IMG/VR virus record: IMGVR_UViG_3300042564_002453
Coordinates: 1-26,638 of that record
From: a virus
DNA: 26,638 nt
Direction: 5' to 3' (one strand)
The first letter of the stretch is position 1. The number at the start of each line of letters is the position of its first letter. Positions 2,990 to 26,318 of this stretch are shown one piece after another. The notes below the pieces were generated by a model. The model saw nothing but the letters and a program-made list of their open reading frames with translations. It was not told the DNA's origin and did not search any database. Both the position numbers and the translations under genes were made by a program.

Positions 2990-4164
2990 ACTATCGTGTT
3001 GTTAGGTGCTGGTAAAGCGATTAACGGTTGTATAAAAATATATTTTCCATTCCAATTTGGTAAATTTTGCACTATATCATTTACAATAGTTTCTAACATA
3101 TTGCGCTCTTTTGATGTGTTTTCCCAATACATTTTTTTAGCCTCTAATAAACTTGCCCCGCTGTTACCAAACATTGCACTATCAGGTGATTTGACCAAAG
3201 CAACGGGCAAGTTATTAAACGCCATTAATATATTTTTAGATACTGAATTTTCAGTATATTCAAACATCTTATCATCAAGCTCAGAATTAATAGTTTGTAT
3301 TTTAAAAATACTATCTATACCATTTATAAAGTCCGGGCTTTCAATCATCAAAGCACCGCCAGCATTTTCACTACCGATAAACTTTTCAATTGTTGCCTTA
3401 ACCTCATCCGCCTCCGCTTGTCTTGTTGCAAATTGTCTGTTTCTTACTAATTGTCCCGCATCGTTTACAATCATTTCAGGCTCATCATTGCTTACTAAAG
3501 GAGGCGTCATTATAACTGTTTTACCAAAGAAACCTTTGCGTAAAATCATATTCTTATAGATAGCCGCTTGACTTTCAGAATCGCAATCATTTAAAACCGC
3601 ATCAATTCTAGATAGTGGATAAAAATACCTGCTATCTAAATTTATATACAAAATTTGTCCTTTGTATTTTTCAATACTTCCAGCCTTTTCAATTTGTGAT
3701 TTAACTACATTTTGATTTTTGTTAAATACATCAAAAATTATAGGGGTTTCTTTACTATCTGACCAGTCATTTTTGAATAGTATTTTTCCGTTATAATTTT
3801 TACTATCTTTTTTACCTAAACGTATTTTTGTAAAATCAATAACTTTTGGGTTTAACTCCTCAAAATTTAGGTTATAATCAAAATGAATGGCTACACCTCT
3901 TTGGCGTACTAAACTATCCGCTATATCAATAGCAAAATCAATTAATTTTTGGTCTGTATTTATTTGAAAGTTATCAGCTTCGCCAAACCCCTTACCTAAT
4001 AAGTATTGTACCATTATTTCAGATGCCATTTTAGCAGTTACGGAGTTGTTTATAACTCTATCAATTCGCTCAGGGTATAAATTATCCTCTCCGTTTTGAT
4101 AAATTTCTAATTTTTTATCCCACTTAACCGCCCTTTTGATTATATCTAGGACTGTAACTTTCAT
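2986..4164 (-). CDS. phage portal protein
   Basis: A 392-residue protein. It opens with a short N-terminal region (KLEIYQNGEDNLYPERID), has a middle beta-rich part (IIFDVFNKNQN, GQILYINLDSRYFYPLSRIDAVLNDCDSESQAAIYKNMIL), the long helix region typical of the portal stem and clip, and a crown-like C-terminus with the pattern DKMFEYTENSVSKNILMAF then FGNSGASLLEAKKMYWENT. The last block (S-G-x-S-h-x-E-A...) is characteristic of portals of Bacteroidetes siphophages. It would form the dodecameric ring for DNA entry and exit. It shares one base with the upstream gene and 4 with the downstream one. It lies downstream of the capsid gene, the reverse of the common order. Confidence 0.85.
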   Translation of the reverse strand: MKVTVLDIIKRAVKWDKKLEIYQNGEDNLYPERIDRVINNSVTAKMASEIMVQYLLGKGFGEADNFQINTDQKLIDFAIDIADSLVRQRGVAIHFDYNLNFEELNPKVIDFTKIRLGKKDSKNYNGKILFKNDWSDSKETPIIFDVFNKNQNVVKSQIEKAGSIEKYKGQILYINLDSRYFYPLSRIDAVLNDCDSESQAAIYKNMILRKGFFGKTVIMTPPLVSNDEPEMIVNDAGQLVRNRQFATRQAEADEVKATIEKFIGSENAGGALMIESPDFINGIDSIFKIQTINSELDDKMFEYTENSVSKNILMAFNNLPVALVKSPDSAMFGNSGASLLEAKKMYWENTSKERNMLETIVNDIVQNLPNWNGKYIFIQPLIALPAPNNTIV

Positions 4165-17900: not shown

Positions 17901-18206
17901 TTAATTACAAACAGTTCTATGTCTGCTATACCTTGTAAGTGTATTATTTGTATTAGTATAAGTTTGCAAAGGTAAAATTACACCATTAGTTGTGCAATCT
18001 GTTGAAGTAGAATTTACTACATTTAAAACAAAATACCAACCAGTTGAGCTACCTTGTCCTGTATTCCAATTATACGTGTAATCGTTATATTCTAAAACCT
18101 TATAACAATTACAATATACAAGTTGTGTTGTTGGCGTTGGTACTTCATCTGTTGAACACGCTACCATTCCGATAGCAAGTGTTACTAATAATAATATTTT
18201 TTTCAT
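17901..18206 (-). CDS. small secreted lipoprotein
   Basis: A 101-residue protein with a classic lipoprotein signal: MKKILLLVTLAIGMVACSTDE, basic N-terminus, hydrophobic core and Cys17 as the acylated residue (lipobox GMVAC). The mature part is Thr/Asn/Tyr-rich and has cysteines at about positions 32, 34, 74 and near the C-terminus (RTVCN). It would be anchored in a host membrane. It has its own promoter 4 bases upstream of the ATG and its own terminator, so it is a separate transcription unit between the accessory genes and terminase. This suggests a moron, for example for superinfection exclusion or host conversion, which is inference. Confidence 0.75.
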   Translation of the reverse strand: MKKILLLVTLAIGMVACSTDEVPTPTTQLVYCNCYKVLEYNDYTYNWNTGQGSSTGWYFVLNVVNSTSTDCTTNGVILPLQTYTNTNNTLTRYSRHRTVCN

Positions 18207-18841: not shown

Positions 18842-19582
18842 TCATACTCCATTTTCAAATGCTTCTTTCATATCTTCCTCACTATACTTATTCTTGTTTT
18901 GTTCTTGTTGCCATTTAGATATTTCAATGTACTTACCGTAATGTTTTTCTTGCCATTCTTTAAATGATAAAGATTCTCCATAAATTACCACTGCAAAAGA
19001 AAATATAGATTCTCTTTTTAATTGATGAAATTGTACATTAAAATCATAATTATTTTCTAATAAATTTTCTAAAGATGATGTATTAACTTCTTCAAGTGTT
19101 TCCTGTTTTTCAGTTTCAATAGTGCAACCATAACTACCATTTACTATTGGTAATTTTTGTTTAGATTCTTCTTTTGGAATGATTATCATATATTCATAAG
19201 GACTATATATTTCTTTAAAACTTCTAAACTTTTCAACTTCAACCTCCTCACAAGTAGGATTTTTAACAAACCATTGTAAGAACTCATCATCAATAGCTTG
19301 AACACCATCTTTGATAAGGTCTTGGTCTGTTGTAAGAATGATTTTTTTGTCTGATTTATCAAGATTGCAATTTGTATATTTTCTTATGTAATTTGTGCTT
19401 TTATTAAAAAAATAATCCCCATCTTTAATTTCTTCATCAGAAGTAATGTAGATGTTTTGGTTTTTATGAATCAAAGTATTTTGACTTTCGTGATTATCTA
19501 AATCTAATATATTATTAAAACTTAAATATAATTTACTTGGCTTGTCTGTTGGAATTACCCATAAATTTCTTTTCTTTTCCAT
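18842..19582 (-). CDS. MKNIHVLP/TDKPSRL-family phage protein, N-terminus altered by GIY-YIG insertion, C-terminus cut by TGA
   Basis: A 246-residue protein. The block VIPTDKPSKLYL, followed by NIYITSDEEIKDGDYF, is the signature of a Bacteroidetes phage protein family that usually begins MKNIHVLPTDKPSRL. Here the N-terminus reads MEKKRNLWVIP: its first codons are the last codons of the overlapping GIY-YIG gene read in another frame. The normal start, MKNIHVLP, survives as a stub at 20357. The C-terminus ends shortly after QNKNKYSEEDMKEAFENGV at a TGA, with 26 more codons in frame. Function of the family is unknown. The protein may be translated from the new start or may be decaying. Confidence 0.7.
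   Translation of the reverse strand: MEKKRNLWVIPTDKPSKLYLSFNNILDLDNHESQNTLIHKNQNIYITSDEEIKDGDYFFNKSTNYIRKYTNCNLDKSDKKIILTTDQDLIKDGVQAIDDEFLQWFVKNPTCEEVEVEKFRSFKEIYSPYEYMIIIPKEESKQKLPIVNGSYGCTIETEKQETLEEVNTSSLENLLENNYDFNVQFHQLKRESIFSFAVVIYGESLSFKEWQEKHYGKYIEISKWQQEQNKNKYSEEDMKEAFENGV
18866..18909 (-). repeat. 44-bp exact direct repeat, copy 1
   Basis: A 44-base stretch identical to 20468-20511, same orientation, encoding the EQNKNKYSEEDMK block in two otherwise different proteins. The identity at all codon positions points to recent duplication or recombination. Confidence 0.9.
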
Positions 19583-20283
19583 ATAAAATTATTTGCTGTT
19601 GTTCTATTGTATTTTGGATTAACACATTGTGTTATACAAGAACATCTTGTTAATGTTTTCTTTGATGCTTCTGTAACAGAATTATATTCTGCTATAAAAT
19701 TATTGTTTAAATCATACTGTAATACTGCAATTGGTTTTTTACCTGGTGTAGGATTATTTTTTCTTCTAACTTTTTCTTTTTCTAACTTTATTAATATGTT
19801 ATCAACTTTATCTGAAGAATATTTTTCTTTATATAACCATATAAAATTATTACAAGTTAATACTTTACCGTTAAGAGCAGCATATAAAGCTTGTCTATGA
19901 ATTTTAAGTTCTTTACAAATAGTTTCTATGTTAATCCACTCTTTGACAATATTTCCTTTTAAATCTATTTGATACGTTGGAGTTATTCTGTTTTGAGAAC
20001 CTTTTCTTCCTTCTCCTCCATCAGTAAAATTTACAAGAGTACCTTTTCCTAAGTCTTTTCTTCCATATAGAGCAATAAGCTCTATTTCTTTTAAACAAGC
20101 TTCTTCCCAAGATAGATTATCAAAAACTATATCTAATTTGTGTTCAGTTTTGTTTATAATTTTTTTAAAGTAATCAGTTCTTAGTGATAGATTTTTTGCT
20201 CTTTTGTATTTAGTATCAGAACCTATTCCTACATAGAAGATTTCATTCTTATCAAGTCTTGTATAAGTATATACGTATGCCAT
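19555..20283 (-). CDS. GIY-YIG homing endonuclease with NUMOD-type DNA-binding repeats
   Basis: A 242-residue protein. Residues 1-95 are a GIY-YIG nuclease: VYTY at 4-7 and YVGIG at 17-21 are the two strands, a basic segment KYKRAK at 25-30 follows, and E66 in CLKEIELIALYG is the probable metal ligand; NFTDGGEG at 85-92 closes the domain. The C-terminal part has two similar modules, YQIDLKGNIVKEWINIETIC and LQYDLNNNFIAEYNSVTEAS, each ending in NNFIW, as in NUMOD1 DNA-binding repeats. It would cut an allele without the insert and spread by repair. It has its own promoter, and its last codons supply a new start codon for the next gene. Confidence 0.85.
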   Translation of the reverse strand: MAYVYTYTRLDKNEIFYVGIGSDTKYKRAKNLSLRTDYFKKIINKTEHKLDIVFDNLSWEEACLKEIELIALYGRKDLGKGTLVNFTDGGEGRKGSQNRITPTYQIDLKGNIVKEWINIETICKELKIHRQALYAALNGKVLTCNNFIWLYKEKYSSDKVDNILIKLEKEKVRRKNNPTPGKKPIAVLQYDLNNNFIAEYNSVTEASKKTLTRCSCITQCVNPKYNRTTANNFIWKRKEIYG

Positions 20284-21194: not shown

Positions 21195-21455
21195 TTACTC
21201 TGTTATTCTTTCGTAATTCTTTCTTATTACTGTTTCTATTTGATAACCCATTTGATTTAAATAAGTTCCTTTGCTTATTTGTTTGCTATCGAAAATAACC
21301 TCAAGCATAGGCTCTAATGATTTTTCAAGTTGTTCGCCTTTGTCTATTATTTCTTTAGCTAATAAACTATTGGCTTTAATATTGTTTAGCTCTGTAATTA
21401 GTAAATAACTTAGTACTGCTATTTTGTGGCTCTGCTGGTGGTGTTTTTTGCTCAT
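21195..21455 (-). CDS. small accessory protein, first gene after leader RNA 2
   Basis: An 86-residue helical protein, MSKKHHQQSHKIAVLSYLLI at the start, then ELNNIKANSLLAKEIIDKGEQLEKSLEPML. No known motif. It is the first coding gene after the structured leader at 21466-21564 and the promoter at 21568-21599, and heads a run of short genes. Whatever that leader senses, this gene is its direct target. Function unknown. Confidence 0.65.
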   Translation of the reverse strand: MSKKHHQQSHKIAVLSYLLITELNNIKANSLLAKEIIDKGEQLEKSLEPMLEVIFDSKQISKGTYLNQMGYQIETVIRKNYERITE

Positions 21456-21465
21456 AATATTTTAA

Positions 21466-21564
21466 ATAAAAATGCCTACCTGTATTTGCGTTGGCTTCAA
21501 CCTCAACACTCCTACAAATAGGCTAATATTGTTAAACTTACTAAATTGTTGAAGCGTAAGTATG
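21466..21564 (-). ncRNA. structured 5' leader RNA 2 with kissing-loop-like terminator hairpin
   Basis: Hairpin I: ACTTAC (21556-21561) pairs with GTAAGT (21536-21541), a 6-bp stem starting at the expected transcript start, with a 14-base loop that includes GCTTCAAC (21548-21555). Hairpin II spans 21474-21523: outer GCC/GGC, middle TATTTG/CAAATA (21515-21520 with 21483-21488), and an inner stem around GUUGA...CCAAC whose apex contains GTTGAAGC (21494-21501), perfectly complementary to the loop of hairpin I. It is followed by ATTTTTATTT, then the ATG at 21453-21455. The arrangement looks like an intrinsic terminator controlled by loop-loop pairing. A second option is the CCTA/TAGG pairing at 21511-21522, which would compete. 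A short GTG frame (VLRLKPTQIQVGIFI) also lies inside hairpin II. Not recognised as a known riboswitch. Confidence 0.55.
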
Positions 21565-21567
21565 ATG

Positions 21568-21599
21568 CAAATATAAAAATAGTTTTTTTAACTACCAAA
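21568..21599 (-). promoter_or_regulatory. promoter TTTG-N20-TATATTTG for leader RNA 2
   Basis: The -7 element TATATTTG is at 21568-21575 and a TTTG at 21596-21599, 20 bases upstream, which fits the Bacteroidetes consensus well. The -33 part lies inside the last codons of the upstream 76-residue gene. Transcription should start near 21561, at the foot of hairpin I. Confidence 0.75.
21576..21594 (-). terminator. weak terminator-like hairpin at the end of the replication operon
   Basis: On the minus strand TAGTT-AAAAA-AACTA (21580-21594), a 5-bp A/T-rich stem containing the stop codon, is followed by TTTT and then by the promoter. The stem is weak, so read-through is likely. Confidence 0.35.
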
Positions 21600-21818
21600 T
21601 ATTTTTTGGTGTAAATGTAAAATTGTCTTATGAATAGATAGATTGATTTCGTTTGCTGATATTGGTTTTGTAAATCGTGTTACTTCTTCTTTATATTCGT
21701 ATTCAATCCACCATTTATATTTATGGTAAACAGGATATACTTTGTAACCTTTTTTAATTAGCTCATAGTTTTTATTTCCAAAGTCAGGTAAACGTTCTAT
21801 TTCTTTACGCTTTGCCAT
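21588..21818 (-). CDS. small protein of unknown function after NinG
   Basis: A 76-residue basic protein, MAKRKEIERLPDFGNKNYEL at the start, then YPVYHKYKWWIEYEYKEE. Rich in Tyr/Trp/Lys and no membrane segment, so nucleic-acid binding is possible but not shown. The start overlaps the NinG stop by 14 bases and is probably translationally coupled. It is the last gene of the replication operon. Confidence 0.65.
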   Translation of the reverse strand: MAKRKEIERLPDFGNKNYELIKKGYKVYPVYHKYKWWIEYEYKEEVTRFTKPISANEINLSIHKTILHLHQKIFGS

Positions 21819-22353
21819 TTAAAAGCTCTTTTGTTTTTACTCTGTATATTGCTATTAATTCTTTTATATCCTCAATAGTCAATAGAGCGGGTTTATTTCT
21901 ATCGTTTACAAGTTGGTTATATCTTTCTATTCCAATTCTTTTTGGTAGCCTTAAAGCATACTCTATTATATTTCCATGCAATTCTTTATTACATTTGATG
22001 CAGGAACTATGTACGTTATCTTCATTAAATCGTAAATTAGGACTTGAACCTACGGAAAAAAAGTGTGAAGCATTTACATCGTTTTCTTTTAAAAACTTAT
22101 CACACGACACGCAAGGTTTTCCTTTATCCCTTGTACGTATGTAAGTATTAAAAACCTTTTGGCAAATATTTAAGTAGTCTGATTTTGTCATTAACTTTTC
22201 CTTAAGTACTTTCTTTTCTTTTTGCCAATCGTTTGCTTTTTTACTTTTCATAAATTGTATTGAACAAGCAATCGAACACACAACTTGGGTATTATTCTGC
22301 GGTGTAAATTTATCTTTACAGCTTACGCATTTTCTTTGATATACTTTTTGCAT
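21805..22353 (-). CDS. NinG/Rap-like recombination nuclease
   Basis: A 182-residue protein. The N-terminal 35 residues hold a zinc-finger-like set (C9, C12, C26, C30). Residues 72-130 carry the conserved NinG core: RTRDKGKPCVSCDK (C81, C84), then ASHFFSVGSSPNLRFNEDNVHSSCIKCN (H97, C118, C121), and LHGN. This is the HNH-like zinc-bound domain of lambda NinG (Rap), a structure-specific nuclease that resolves recombination junctions. It overlaps NinB by one base, so the two are translated together. The pair is common in phage recombination loci, which with Rad52 and the SSB-like protein gives a full recombination set here. Confidence 0.85.
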   Translation of the reverse strand: MQKVYQRKCVSCKDKFTPQNNTQVVCSIACSIQFMKSKKANDWQKEKKVLKEKLMTKSDYLNICQKVFNTYIRTRDKGKPCVSCDKFLKENDVNASHFFSVGSSPNLRFNEDNVHSSCIKCNKELHGNIIEYALRLPKRIGIERYNQLVNDRNKPALLTIEDIKELIAIYRVKTKELLNGKA

Positions 22354-22787
22354 TATTCTAAAGTTAAAGTTAAATCTTGGTTTGGTTCAGGAATAGTAAC
22401 ACCAAAAAAATCAAATATCCATTCTCTTATTCCTGCAAAATAATCCATCATTTGACTGGTTGATAATTCAGTTGTTGATTTTATTCTTTCAATAGTTTCT
22501 CCTGTGCTTTCATCTACTATTAAAGTTTCTTTTAAAAATTTAAGTTTCAGTAAGTCGTGTGTTTGGTCTTTTGTTAAAGTATGCCCAACTTCTTTTAGAG
22601 TGTTTTGAACAATAGGCACAACCACACCCCATAGGTAGGAATTTTGAGGAGTACTTCTTTTCTTCTTTGCCTTTTCTATTTTAATTACTATTTGCTTACC
22701 TTCAAAAGTTTGTATTGCATCTTTAATTAAATTTGTATTGCGTGTTAAAGTTCCGTTTTTAACCTCGCTGATTATTTCGTAATTCAT
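22353..22787 (-). CDS. NinB-like recombination mediator (Orf family)
   Basis: A 144-residue protein. The block KKKRSTPQNSYLWGVVVPIV at residues 41-60, with R44, S45, Q48, N49 and W53, is the hallmark of NinB (lambda Orf), which binds single-stranded DNA and SSB and helps load recombinases. The preceding IVIKIEKAKKK and the later FLKETLIVDESTGE... and STELSTSQMMDYFAGIREW also fit. Overlaps NinG and the ATPase gene by one base each. It would act with the Rad52-like protein and the SSB-like protein encoded upstream. Confidence 0.85.
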   Translation of the reverse strand: MNYEIISEVKNGTLTRNTNLIKDAIQTFEGKQIVIKIEKAKKKRSTPQNSYLWGVVVPIVQNTLKEVGHTLTKDQTHDLLKLKFLKETLIVDESTGETIERIKSTTELSTSQMMDYFAGIREWIFDFFGVTIPEPNQDLTLTLE

Positions 22788-23617
22788 TATTCAATTAAAT
22801 AAGGTAAACCATTACTATTTACATCAAAGTTAAAATCTTCAAATCTATAACCTCTTGAGAATGGATTTGAAACGTTTATACTTCCATCTTCATTTTGTTC
22901 TAAAGATATTACATTTTCTGCTTTTTTTAATACATAAGTTCCTAAATGCCCCAAAGGTTTTCCAGTAGTTCCTGATTTATGTATAACCGTCATAATGTGT
23001 ATTCCATATTCGTAAGTCCATTTAGTCAAATAATCAGATGCTTGTTTACTCATTACAATATCGTTAGTATTTTCTATTAAATCAGCAATTCCGTCAATAG
23101 CAACAAACTTAACTTTTTTATCATATAACTTATTTTGGTTAGATAAACAATAATCAATTAACTTTAATCTTTGCTCACTTGGTAAATTACGAGTTATGTA
23201 ACATTTGTAATGCGTGTATAAACTCCCTACCATATCGTTTACTCGTCTAAATGTTCTTTGTGCATAATAAGCACCTTGCTCTGTATCAAAATCTAATATA
23301 GTAAAATCTTCTTTACGATGGCTTTTTATGTTTGGAAATAATTGATTTGTATTTCCACCTATAAAACTGGCTATAAATGCAGATTTAATAAACGATTTCT
23401 TTTTTTTACTTTCAGCTATAATTGCAGAAAATTCACTTGAAGTACATAAAGAAGTTGGATAACTATTTCCTTTGTACGTATGTTCGCCAATAGATAAAAG
23501 CGTATCAGGTGGTAAAAGTTCCTCGCTTAAATCTACATAACTACTAATTTCAATATCATTTATATTAAAATATTTTAAATTTTCTTCGCTAATTAATTCG
23601 TCAAAATTTATATCCAT
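22787..23617 (-). CDS. RecA-like/RepA-type ATPase of phage replication, with atypical Walker A
   Basis: A 276-residue protein. The region from residue 63 (FSAIIAESKKKKSFIKSAF) is in the place of the Walker A loop, but instead of GxxxxGK[ST] it reads AESKKKKS, so the glycines are replaced by Lys/Glu while K74 and S75 remain. Walker B is clear: KFVAIDGIADLI at 170-181 with D175. The later block HIMTVIHKSGTTGKPLGHLGTYVLKKAENVI (about 207-236) is the sensor region of RepA/AAA_25-type ATPases. It would be a replicative helicase-like or recombination ATPase acting with the initiator gene upstream. ATP hydrolysis may be altered; this needs a comparison with relatives. Confidence 0.8.
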   Translation of the reverse strand: MDINFDELISEENLKYFNINDIEISSYVDLSEELLPPDTLLSIGEHTYKGNSYPTSLCTSSEFSAIIAESKKKKSFIKSAFIASFIGGNTNQLFPNIKSHRKEDFTILDFDTEQGAYYAQRTFRRVNDMVGSLYTHYKCYITRNLPSEQRLKLIDYCLSNQNKLYDKKVKFVAIDGIADLIENTNDIVMSKQASDYLTKWTYEYGIHIMTVIHKSGTTGKPLGHLGTYVLKKAENVISLEQNEDGSINVSNPFSRGYRFEDFNFDVNSNGLPYLIE

Positions 23618-24126
23618 TATGTATAATTATTTGTGTTAGTAATAAATTCGTTTATAGTTTTTTCAAAAGATTTTTTAACATCGTCAAACTCCCACTTTTC
23701 TAAAATCTTATTACTAAATTCTTTTTCGTGTTTTTTTATTAATTCTAAATTATTGTTTTTAGCTTCTAAACTTTCAACTAATTCAAAAGTAATACCTTTT
23801 TCTTTCATTAAGTTTTGTAATGCTTGTATATTTAGTTCGCTTGTTAATCGTTCTAAATGTGAAATCAAAGGTAAATCTAAATCGTTTTGAACTTCTTTAA
23901 TTGATGCGTTTATATTTCCGTGCCTTAATAAAGAAAAAAACATATTGGCACATACTACCTTTGCAAATAACGTTTGTTCAGTAATTCTTAATTCGGTTAA
24001 ATAGTTAATCTCTTCTTGCAAAGTTTTTAATGCTTCAAAATCTTCTTTATAAACTTGTTTCTTTTCGTATAGTCTTTTAAAAGTATTTCCTAATCTTTTA
24101 AATGCTGATTGCGATTTCCAACTCAT
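23617..24126 (-). CDS. replication-operon helical protein of unknown function
   Basis: A 169-residue, mainly helical and charged protein. MSWKSQSAFKRLGNTFKRLYE at the start, then a coiled-coil stretch from ALKTLQEEINYLTELRI, and a C-terminus with LELIKKHEKEFSNKILEKWEFDDVKKSFEK. No nucleotide-binding motif. It sits between the initiator-like gene (2 bases) and the RecA-like ATPase (1-base overlap), a position often used by helicase loaders or accessory factors, so a loader role is possible but only an inference. Confidence 0.6.
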   Translation of the reverse strand: MSWKSQSAFKRLGNTFKRLYEKKQVYKEDFEALKTLQEEINYLTELRITEQTLFAKVVCANMFFSLLRHGNINASIKEVQNDLDLPLISHLERLTSELNIQALQNLMKEKGITFELVESLEAKNNNLELIKKHEKEFSNKILEKWEFDDVKKSFEKTINEFITNTNNYT

Positions 24127-24128
24127 AA

Positions 24129-24746
24129 TTAAAATTTTAATGGTATTCGTGTATTTTGTTTATTTGTTTTTGAAAACCAATCCGCATCAAAACCACCCCA
24201 ACTTTTCTCAACACATTTTTCTAATACCTCGTTTATATTATATCCACTTTTATTGTATTGTATTACAAATTTATTAAAAGCTGTTTGTGTGTTTGTTAAT
24301 TTTTTGTTTTTACGTACTTTAATCCAATCAAAAACTAATTCTTTTTTAGCACCTAAATTAATTAAAGAATTATAAAAAGAAAAAGGCAAAGGCTTATTTA
24401 TATTTTCTTCTTTCTCTTTTACTTCTACTTCTTCTTTCTCTTCTTCTTCTTGGGGGTTAGTCATAGGGTTATTCATAGGGTTAGTCGTGGGGTCTATTGT
24501 AGGGTTACCTAAAACATCAGTATTACTTACCCTTAACCAACCTTTTACACTTGATTCAATAATATGCCTTTGACTTTCATAACATAGTTTTACAATAAAA
24601 GATAAATCTTTTGGGTCTTCATTTAAAAATTGTTTATTAATGATTGAAGTTAAAAATTCAAGTTTATCCTTGTCTTCTTTCAATTCATTAAAAACATCAA
24701 AATAACTTCTTAAGAAATTAAATGCTTTTCGTTTTGTTGGTTTCAT
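24129..24746 (-). CDS. replication initiator-like protein with internal 12-bp iterons (DUF6291-like N-terminus)
   Basis: A 205-residue protein from the ATG at 24744-24746 (MKPTKRKAFNF); an ATG at 24786-24788 would add 14 residues but lies inside the terminator loop of the leader. Residues 1-75 (FNFLRSYFDVFNELKEDKDKLEFLTSIIN...DLSFIVKLCYESQRHIIESSVKGWLR) resemble the helical DUF6291 domain. A linker of NPxx tetrapeptides (NPTIDPTTNPMNNPMTNP) and an acidic run follow. The C-terminal domain (KKELVFDWIKVRKNKKLTNTQTAFNKF ... WGGFDADWF) resembles the DnaD-type tail of Bacteroidetes phage initiators. It probably binds the repeats within its own gene, as in lambda O, and recruits the ATPase downstream. 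Initiator role is inferred. Confidence 0.75.
   Translation of the reverse strand: MKPTKRKAFNFLRSYFDVFNELKEDKDKLEFLTSIINKQFLNEDPKDLSFIVKLCYESQRHIIESSVKGWLRVSNTDVLGNPTIDPTTNPMNNPMTNPQEEEEKEEVEVKEKEENINKPLPFSFYNSLINLGAKKELVFDWIKVRKNKKLTNTQTAFNKFVIQYNKSGYNINEVLEKCVEKSWGGFDADWFSKTNKQNTRIPLKF
24453..24507 (-). repeat. 12-bp iterons inside the initiator gene, candidate replication origin
   Basis: On the plus strand five 12-base units follow each other: GGGGTTAGTCAT, AGGGTTATTCAT, AGGGTTAGTCGT, GGGGTCTATTGT and AGGGTTA (partial). They give the NPxx repeats of the protein. GGGTTA is present in four of the five. AT-rich DNA lies on both sides. This is the layout of origins placed in the initiator gene, as in lambda. 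Confidence 0.6.
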
Positions 24747-24754
24747 ATTATAAT

Positions 24755-24846
24755 AAAAAGACAAAACCCCTAAAGAGCCATCACACATCTTTAAGGGTTT
24801 GTCGTGCTAATAAATTAGCAATATTTTCCTGTAAGTGATGGTTTAC
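24755..24846 (-). ncRNA. structured 5' leader RNA 1 with terminator and complementary loops
   Basis: Hairpin I: GTAA and TTAC (24831-24846) flank an 8-base loop with CCATCAC (24835-24841). A perfect 7-bp palindrome TGCTAAT-TT-ATTAGCA follows at 24805-24820. Hairpin II is a 16-bp stem with one bulge and one G-U pair (24788-24803 with 24760-24776), loop at 24777-24787, followed by TTTTTATTA. Its loop contains GTGATGG (24778-24784), perfectly complementary to the loop of hairpin I. The asymmetric G-U pair (a C-A mismatch on the other strand) shows it is built for the minus-strand RNA. This is an intrinsic terminator before the replication operon, with a possible kissing-loop switch. Same plan as leader RNA 2. 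No known riboswitch was recognised. Confidence 0.6.
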
Positions 24847-24851
24847 GTATG

Positions 24852-24881
24852 CAAATATACAAAAAAAATATAACCTGCAAA
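24852..24881 (-). promoter_or_regulatory. promoter TTTG-N18-TATATTTG for the replication operon
   Basis: -7 element TATATTTG at 24852-24859 and TTTG (24878-24881) 18 bases upstream, in the range of the Bacteroidetes consensus. The -33 element lies inside the stem of the upstream terminator. Transcription should start at about 24846, at hairpin I of the leader. Confidence 0.75.
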
Positions 24882-25862: not shown

Positions 25863-26318
25863 TTATTGTTTACTTAATTCATTACACCAAAGATTAATTG
25901 TATTGGCGTTTTTTACAAAACTATTTGATTTTTCAGAAAACGGAATCCATTTATTATTTTCTTGTTTAACTGGCAATTTAATTATTTTTTTAGAATATAA
26001 AAAACGACCTATTCCCCACATAACAGCAGCACGTTTAAAAGCATCTGAAGCTTCTCCTTTTTCTTTTTCTACATTGCTTTCAGTACCGCAATCAGATTTC
26101 CAAGTCCAAGAATCATTTGTTTTAATTCCTATATTACAAAACAAATTACCTTTGTATTCTTCAAATTTACATTGCCAATTTTCAGCACCACAAACCTCAT
26201 CTAATAAATCTTGCACATCTCTTGAATCTATATAAGCTACACAACTTGCACCCCATTGATTAGAAGATTGAACTCTCCATTTAAAAGGTATTTCTTTTTT
26301 TAAATCTTTTAAATTCAT
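25863..26318 (-). CDS. Rad52-like single-strand annealing protein
   Basis: A 151-residue protein. AYIDSRDVQDLLDEVCGAENWQCKF at 29-52, GNLFCNIGIKTNDSWTWKSDCGTES at about 57-81, and KGEASDAFKRAAVMWGIGRFLY at 87-108 are the three conserved blocks of Rad52/22-type annealing proteins in phages. The length is that of the annealing core only. It would anneal complementary strands during recombination-dependent replication, working with the SSB-like protein downstream and NinB. The start ATG at 26316-26318 lies 3 bases after the previous stop. Confidence 0.9.
   Translation of the reverse strand: MNLKDLKKEIPFKWRVQSSNQWGASCVAYIDSRDVQDLLDEVCGAENWQCKFEEYKGNLFCNIGIKTNDSWTWKSDCGTESNVEKEKGEASDAFKRAAVMWGIGRFLYSKKIIKLPVKQENNKWIPFSEKSNSFVKNANTINLWCNELSKQ

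Follow-up and report, generated by a model that had tools for sequence, protein, structure and literature searches.

Loop-loop pairing between closed stems is familiar from RNA I and RNA II of ColE1 plasmids, where loops of about 7 nucleotides (nt) pair while the stems stay closed, and specificity may change if complementarity stays. Loop-loop contacts also decide terminator formation in the replication-gene leaders governed by the antisense attenuators of pT181 and pIP501, and the CI RNA of phage P4 and the C4 RNA of phages P1 and P7 are phage-operon leader RNAs in which short complementary strings lie within one transcript and differ between immunity groups. Here we analyze the 26,638 nt of virus record IMGVR_UViG_3300042564_002453 in IMG/VR (the window), which covers part of the genome of a tailed phage, kin to Flavobacterium phages. 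Two of its minus-strand operons open with the same leader plan, leader A at 24859-24746 and leader B at 21575-21455, and we propose, with a probability of roughly 0.8, that both act in cis as transcription attenuators, each made of two kissing hairpins.

Read 5' to 3', both leaders consist of a -7 box, a 5'-terminal hairpin I that begins about 6 bases after the box, a spacer, an intrinsic-terminator hairpin II, a U-tract, and a start codon 13 to 18 bases past hairpin II. The loops of the two hairpins are perfectly complementary over 7 or 8 bases. The parts are as follows.

24852 to 24859, minus strand: -7 box of leader A, TATATTTG, of the Bacteroidota TAnnTTTG type, from the sequence and the upstream profile of the family.
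24831 to 24846, minus strand: hairpin I of leader A, GTAA-A-CCATCAC-TTAC, from the fold, with the loop CCATCAC at 24841-24835.
24805 to 24820, minus strand: spacer mini-hairpin of leader A, TGCTAATTTATTAGCA, from the fold, found only in the A-type scaffold.
24760 to 24803, minus strand: hairpin II of leader A, the intrinsic terminator stem, from the fold, with the loop target GTGATGG at 24784-24778.
24752 to 24759, minus strand: U-tract of leader A, TTTTTATT, from the sequence.
24129 to 24746, minus strand: first gene after leader A, with its ATG at 24746, a replication initiation O-like / primosomal protein (PHROGs 6451, 1.6e-20; 678, 2.1e-15).
21568 to 21575, minus strand: -7 box of leader B, TATATTTG, from the sequence.
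21536 to 21561, minus strand: hairpin I of leader B, ACTTAC-GCTTCAAC-AATTTA-GTAAGT, from the fold, with the anti-loop GCTTCAAC at 21555-21548.
21474 to 21523, minus strand: hairpin II of leader B, the intrinsic terminator stem, from the fold, with the loop target GTTGAAGC at 21501-21494.
21464 to 21473, minus strand: U-tract of leader B, ATTTTTATTT, from the sequence.
21195 to 21455, minus strand: first gene after leader B, with its ATG at 21455, an 86-amino-acid protein of unknown function, for which PHROGs gave no match and Pfam only a sub-threshold one.

A promoter, two hairpins, a U-tract and complementary loops of 7 and 8 bases had been described at both sites by a first-pass annotation, and direct reading agrees with it, down to anti-loops that start 10 (A) and 12 (B) bases past the box. 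In each leader a stable stem is followed by a U-tract, as expected of an intrinsic terminator, and both leaders are more stable than their dinucleotide shuffles (z of -3.95 for A and -3.28 for B). With loop II alone shuffled, a loop match as good as the real one came up in 1.1% of trials for A and 0.26% for B, so that the two leaders by themselves are suggestive, not decisive, and it is the homologues that decide.

Relatives of the two downstream genes in IMG/VR carry the same leader plan with other loop pairs: GTGGACG/CGTCCAC (L003), GCACTAC/GTAGTGC (L004), GTGCAG/CTGCAC (L005 and L006), GCCTGAGAA/TTCTCAGGC (L017) and, as homologues of leader B, GGTCTGAA/TTCAGACC (L024) and GCTTCGAC/GTCGAAGC in phage hattifnatt9-1. 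Homologues of the gene after leader A retain the promoter, hairpin I and the terminator, while the complementary loops differ; the A-type spacer mini-hairpin is likewise retained with altered sequence, and the hairpin I stem of the A-type leaders (n=23) covaries as GTA/TAC, GCA/TGC and GTG/CAC. A scanner for a box, hairpin I and a terminator with complementary loops yielded many further leaders, which brought the loop pairs seen to about 49 in total. Two scanner matches, L019 and L094, look like chance matches in coding sequence and were discarded, and L038 and L173 were discarded as well.

Further evidence comes from two scans of IMG/VR in which part of the hairpin II scaffold was fixed and the loop was left as N, without any selection for complementarity. 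All 34 distinct leaders recovered in this way pair with their own hairpin I, in 249 of 249 kissing cells. For the A scaffold these are 23 of 23 leaders and 161 of 161 cells (shuffled mean 145, maximum 152), and 3 of the 7 positions have changed on both sides; for the D scaffold they are 11 of 11 leaders and 88 of 88 cells (shuffled mean 79, maximum 85), and both sides have changed at 3 of the 8 positions. One leader, L192, has CCACTGC opposite GTAGTGG and hence a single G-U pair, which fits pairing of RNA, not DNA, and looks like an evolutionary intermediate. In a redundant set of 421 promoter-terminator-ATG leaders chosen blind to their loops, 7-mer loop complementarity occurs in 96, against 1 in each of the reversed, complemented and direct-repeat controls. 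In a looser test, a score tolerant of G-U pairs reached its threshold in 42 of 92 non-coding clusters compared to 6 of 92 with a parallel-strand control. Some of these counts are redundant or phylogenetically linked. The first-pass annotation had staked its proposal on compensatory changes in homologues, and these are abundant: many unrelated loop pairs on the same architecture, two-sided changes in near-identical scaffolds, and the one G-U intermediate. At the level of sequence, this comparison demonstrates the architecture, a covarying loop-loop helix inside a terminator leader, and a constant tie of that helix both to a terminator with a U-tract and to the heads of replication and accessory operons. 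Looking for a recurrent motif, or a trans-target shared between leaders, gave a weak result, in that the most frequent loop 4-mer has a count of 10, which is matched or exceeded in about 1% of shuffles.

Over 36 leaders the distance from the box to hairpin I is 4-8 nt (median 6), and the kiss is 6 base pairs (bp) long in 3 leaders, 7 in 20, 8 in 7, 9 in 5 and 10 in 1. A median of 1 nt of loop II is unpaired at the 5' side, and 0 nt at the 3' side in 30 of the 36. The closed stems, 6-8 bp of pairing and short linkers of a ColE1-type contact are all present, and this geometry, read from sequence only, matches a compact kissing complex; a long antiterminator helix that reached into the terminator stem should extend beyond the kiss observed. 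When the U-tract filter was removed from the scan, true members still showed a U-tract by eye, so that termination of transcription is the most likely output. The spacers between hairpins I and II (for example L037:33628 and L117:566) often resemble AAAGAAATTTTA or GAAAATATT, a weak shared A-then-T motif, which could serve as a pause or binding site.

The genes downstream bear out the earlier suggestion that the element heads replication and accessory operons: they include genes for O-like/DnaD-like replication proteins, 16 of the 35 downstream genes falling into one homology group, small open reading frames (ORFs) that precede such genes, and genes for HNH endonucleases, for a helicase and for a methyltransferase. 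The B scaffold precedes unlike genes across phages (the 86-amino-acid protein, a methyltransferase and a helicase), which suggests a portable cassette. HNH endonuclease genes of the NUMOD4 type have a kissing leader of their own (L004:7240, L035:12552, L046:4103, and L187 on the minus strand near 4059), with the loops GTCGTCG/CGACGAC and the variants GTCGCAG, GTGGTCG and GTGGACG, as if the mobile HNH gene travels together with its gate.

We also looked at cultured phages, chosen via replication-protein homology or leader DNA similarity, and all of those so chosen pair. They infect Polaribacter (P12002L and P12002S, GGTCGTAG/CTACGACC; Freya_1, GGTGGAA/TTCCACC), Tenacibaculum (Gundel_1, GTAGGATTC/GAATCCTAC), Cellulophaga (phi46:3, CTCTCACAA/TTGTGAGAG) and Flavobacterium (elemoA, TGAGAGC/GCTCTCA; mumin6-1 and snusmum9-1, loop GTGGAACG; morran9-1, loop GTGAGAAG). 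Filifjonk9-1 (GTGAGACG) and 11b (CGGGCAGG) were picked up by the scanner. The first-pass annotation had spoken of a kissing family in the operons of this phage; the family is upheld, and it occurs in many flavobacterial phages besides. In 3.0 megabases (Mb) of viral DNA with 5080 boxes there are 68 promoters with the full plan compared to 3, 5 and 6 in composition-matched controls, whereas 0.65 Mb of Flavobacterium chromosome with 978 boxes gives 2 compared to 1, 0 and 2. The A-scaffold pattern, run across GTDB genomes, found no host or prophage copies, its sole match lying inside coding sequence of Flavobacterium sp. CF136. By these counts the kissing leader is a phage element.

How might such a leader work? 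Hairpin I, the first structure of the transcript, would fold first and hold ready the 7-8 nt that complement the apical loop of the terminator, hairpin II, directly before the first gene. The two loops could then pair while both stems stay closed, as in kissing complexes of the ColE1 type. Loop II would leave RNA polymerase ahead of the 3' arm of its own stem, so that the waiting hairpin I could be kissed in time, and the kissed state would shift the odds that the terminator releases polymerase, with the balance of kissed and unkissed leaders gating the operon. As to direction, we lean weakly, at a little under even odds, towards kissing that opposes or delays termination, since the stems of the terminators, mostly about -10 to -23 kcal/mol, are strong enough to need no help; the reverse direction is almost as probable.

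Several points weigh against this attenuator. A 7-8 bp kiss can coexist with a terminator stem that stays closed, and need not disrupt termination. The six control clusters that reached the threshold of the G-U-tolerant score mean that some single members may be chance. Finally, the scanner was blank in Bacteroides B40-8, Riemerella RAP44 and Flavobacterium 6H, so the kissing leader is not universal among Bacteroidota phages; the scanner also missed the P12002L leader, which was spotted by eye, and its absence calls are therefore weak evidence.

The kiss could act in the other direction and enforce termination, the complex stabilizing the terminator until a phage or host factor breaks the kiss and opens the operon. 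The geometry permits both stems and the kiss together, and in some leaders (L046 and L121) the U-tract is set off from the stem. Most stems are, however, strong enough already for added pairing to be under little selection, and we regard this version as possible, on the doubtful side.

A third reading moves the partner to another molecule: the terminated leader RNA of about 100 nt would accumulate and bind, through its loops, the leaders being transcribed from other genome copies or from superinfecting phages. The outcome would be feedback on copy number or an immunity group, for which P4 CI RNA and P1/P7 C4 RNA are precedents. Phages from the same Flavobacterium strains do fall into three loop groups (GTGAGACG, GTGGAACG and GTGAGAAG) with leaders that are otherwise similar, and in the cases seen, genomes with two or three leaders have distinct loops for each. 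Kissing bases also diverge more than the other hairpin bases (0.215 compared to 0.093 for A, and 0.177 compared to 0.119 for D), yet in A they are no more divergent than the whole remaining leader (0.215 compared to 0.232). Each leader RNA moreover carries both partners and would mask itself, and no PF00589 integrase was found among 31 records of carrier phages, of which some are fragments, and this weakens lysogenic immunity as a general reason; Freya-type Polaribacter phages are reported with an integrase (PMC8776804). Taken together, these observations make pairing in trans unlikely.

We also consider quite unlikely a put-like processive antitermination, as in phage HK022, in which RNA polymerase would be bound by the kissed pair of hairpins and so pass hairpin II and later terminators. 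The family does have two-stem-loop RNAs near promoters of phage operons, ending in a terminator, and putRNA is a two-stem-loop RNA that works without a phage protein (PMC9378689). However, putRNAs share sequence and single bases in them matter (PMC9378689), while the loops of the kissing leader are free to change and the terminator is hairpin II itself. Much less probable again is an operator in the DNA for a phage repressor, without RNA function. Right after the promoter the complementary strings form an inverted repeat with arms about 50 bp apart, as such an operator might, yet they sit in apical loops whose stems covary independently, they tolerate G-U in place of a Watson-Crick pair (L192), a U-tract terminator comes next, and they differ per leader within one genome, which would call for a separate repressor at every leader. 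Chance complementarity in ordinary terminators, to which the shuffle rates of the two window cases, picked after the fact, leave some room, is contradicted by homologues and controls and refuted by the scaffold scans, and its probability is negligible.

Returning to the cis-acting attenuator, it is conceivable, and for now tentative, that these leaders make up a sequence-independent class of RNA switch, in which a first hairpin kissing the loop of its own terminator serves as a modular gate in front of operons for replication, endonucleases and other functions. As a freely re-coded key, the loop pair would then make each leader, and perhaps each phage interference group, orthogonal.

Elsewhere in the window, the protein at 19555-20283 resembles a GIY-YIG endonuclease by eye (YVYTYTRLDKNEIFYVGIGSD), and two ORFs adjoining it have the string EQNKNKYSEEDMK in common. 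A tail-region protein at 1053-2132 has collagen-like GXY repeats (GLKGDKGDQGIQGIQG), and a small predicted lipoprotein at 17901-18206 (MKKILLLVTLAIGMVACSTDE) is flanked by an ORF of unknown function and by the gene preceding the large terminase. At 25863-26318, 22353-22787 and 21805-22353 there is a recombination set like that of lambdoid phages, with Rad52/Erf-like, NinB-like and NinG-like proteins.

To our knowledge almost nothing has been established about gene regulation in phages of Flavobacteriaceae, in which the kissing leader appears to be a common control element, being present in every homology-chosen cultured flavophage leader inspected. It offers a system for how a loop-loop contact affects an intrinsic terminator and, if it is a true switch, its loop pair, which can be re-coded, would lend itself naturally to the making of orthogonal attenuators for Bacteroidota. 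The first-pass annotation had found no described class to fit, and this agrees with our searches. In Rfam, the window and 12 carrier loci gave no match above the gathering score except one tRNA, and permissive thresholds gave chance-level matches only; in the open-licence papers searched there is no description of such a leader. The kissing terminator leader is a real and seemingly undescribed RNA control element, which can escape catalogues of RNA families built on sequence because only complementarity is conserved and no loop base is fixed.

Among described systems, the putRNA of HK022 is alike in being a nascent two-stem-loop RNA that lies by an early phage promoter and has to do with terminators, and differs in its conserved sequence, in acting on distant terminators, and in hairpins that are not the terminator (PMC9378689), whereas here hairpin II is the terminator. 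P4 CI and P1/P7 C4 share the phage operon leader with variable complementary strings; they are, however, processed small RNAs acting in trans and lack a promoter-proximal hairpin paired with the loop of an intrinsic terminator, and the C4 covariance model (Rfam RF01695) gave no match in the window or the 12 carrier loci. The pT181 and pIP501 type combines loop-loop contacts, a terminator and a replication-gene leader, as we see here, yet requires a separate antisense RNA, and none was identified for the kissing leaders.

The HMP-PP riboswitch (thiS motif) places a regulatory structure within an intrinsic terminator, with a loop in a possible pseudoknot, and switches termination; its terminator loop sequence is highly conserved, it binds a ligand, and its alternative structure breaks the terminator stem (PMC6478431). 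Regulation embedded in an intrinsic terminator with a participating loop is common to both. Unlike the HMP-PP riboswitch, the kissing leader has hypervariable loops in which complementarity alone is kept, and both of its stems can coexist. The conserved unpaired pocket nucleotides of a ligand riboswitch were not found across about 49 loop pairs, where loops and stems vary freely, and the genes that follow are for replication, an HNH nuclease, a helicase and a methyltransferase. Work on ColE1 compatibility is given in PMC9458437. Loops of about 7 nt pairing between two closed stems are common to RNA I / RNA II and the kissing leader, but in ColE1 the contact is intermolecular, between sense and antisense RNAs from opposite strands in plasmid primer control, whereas in the kissing leader both loops lie on one transcript and one of them is in the terminator.

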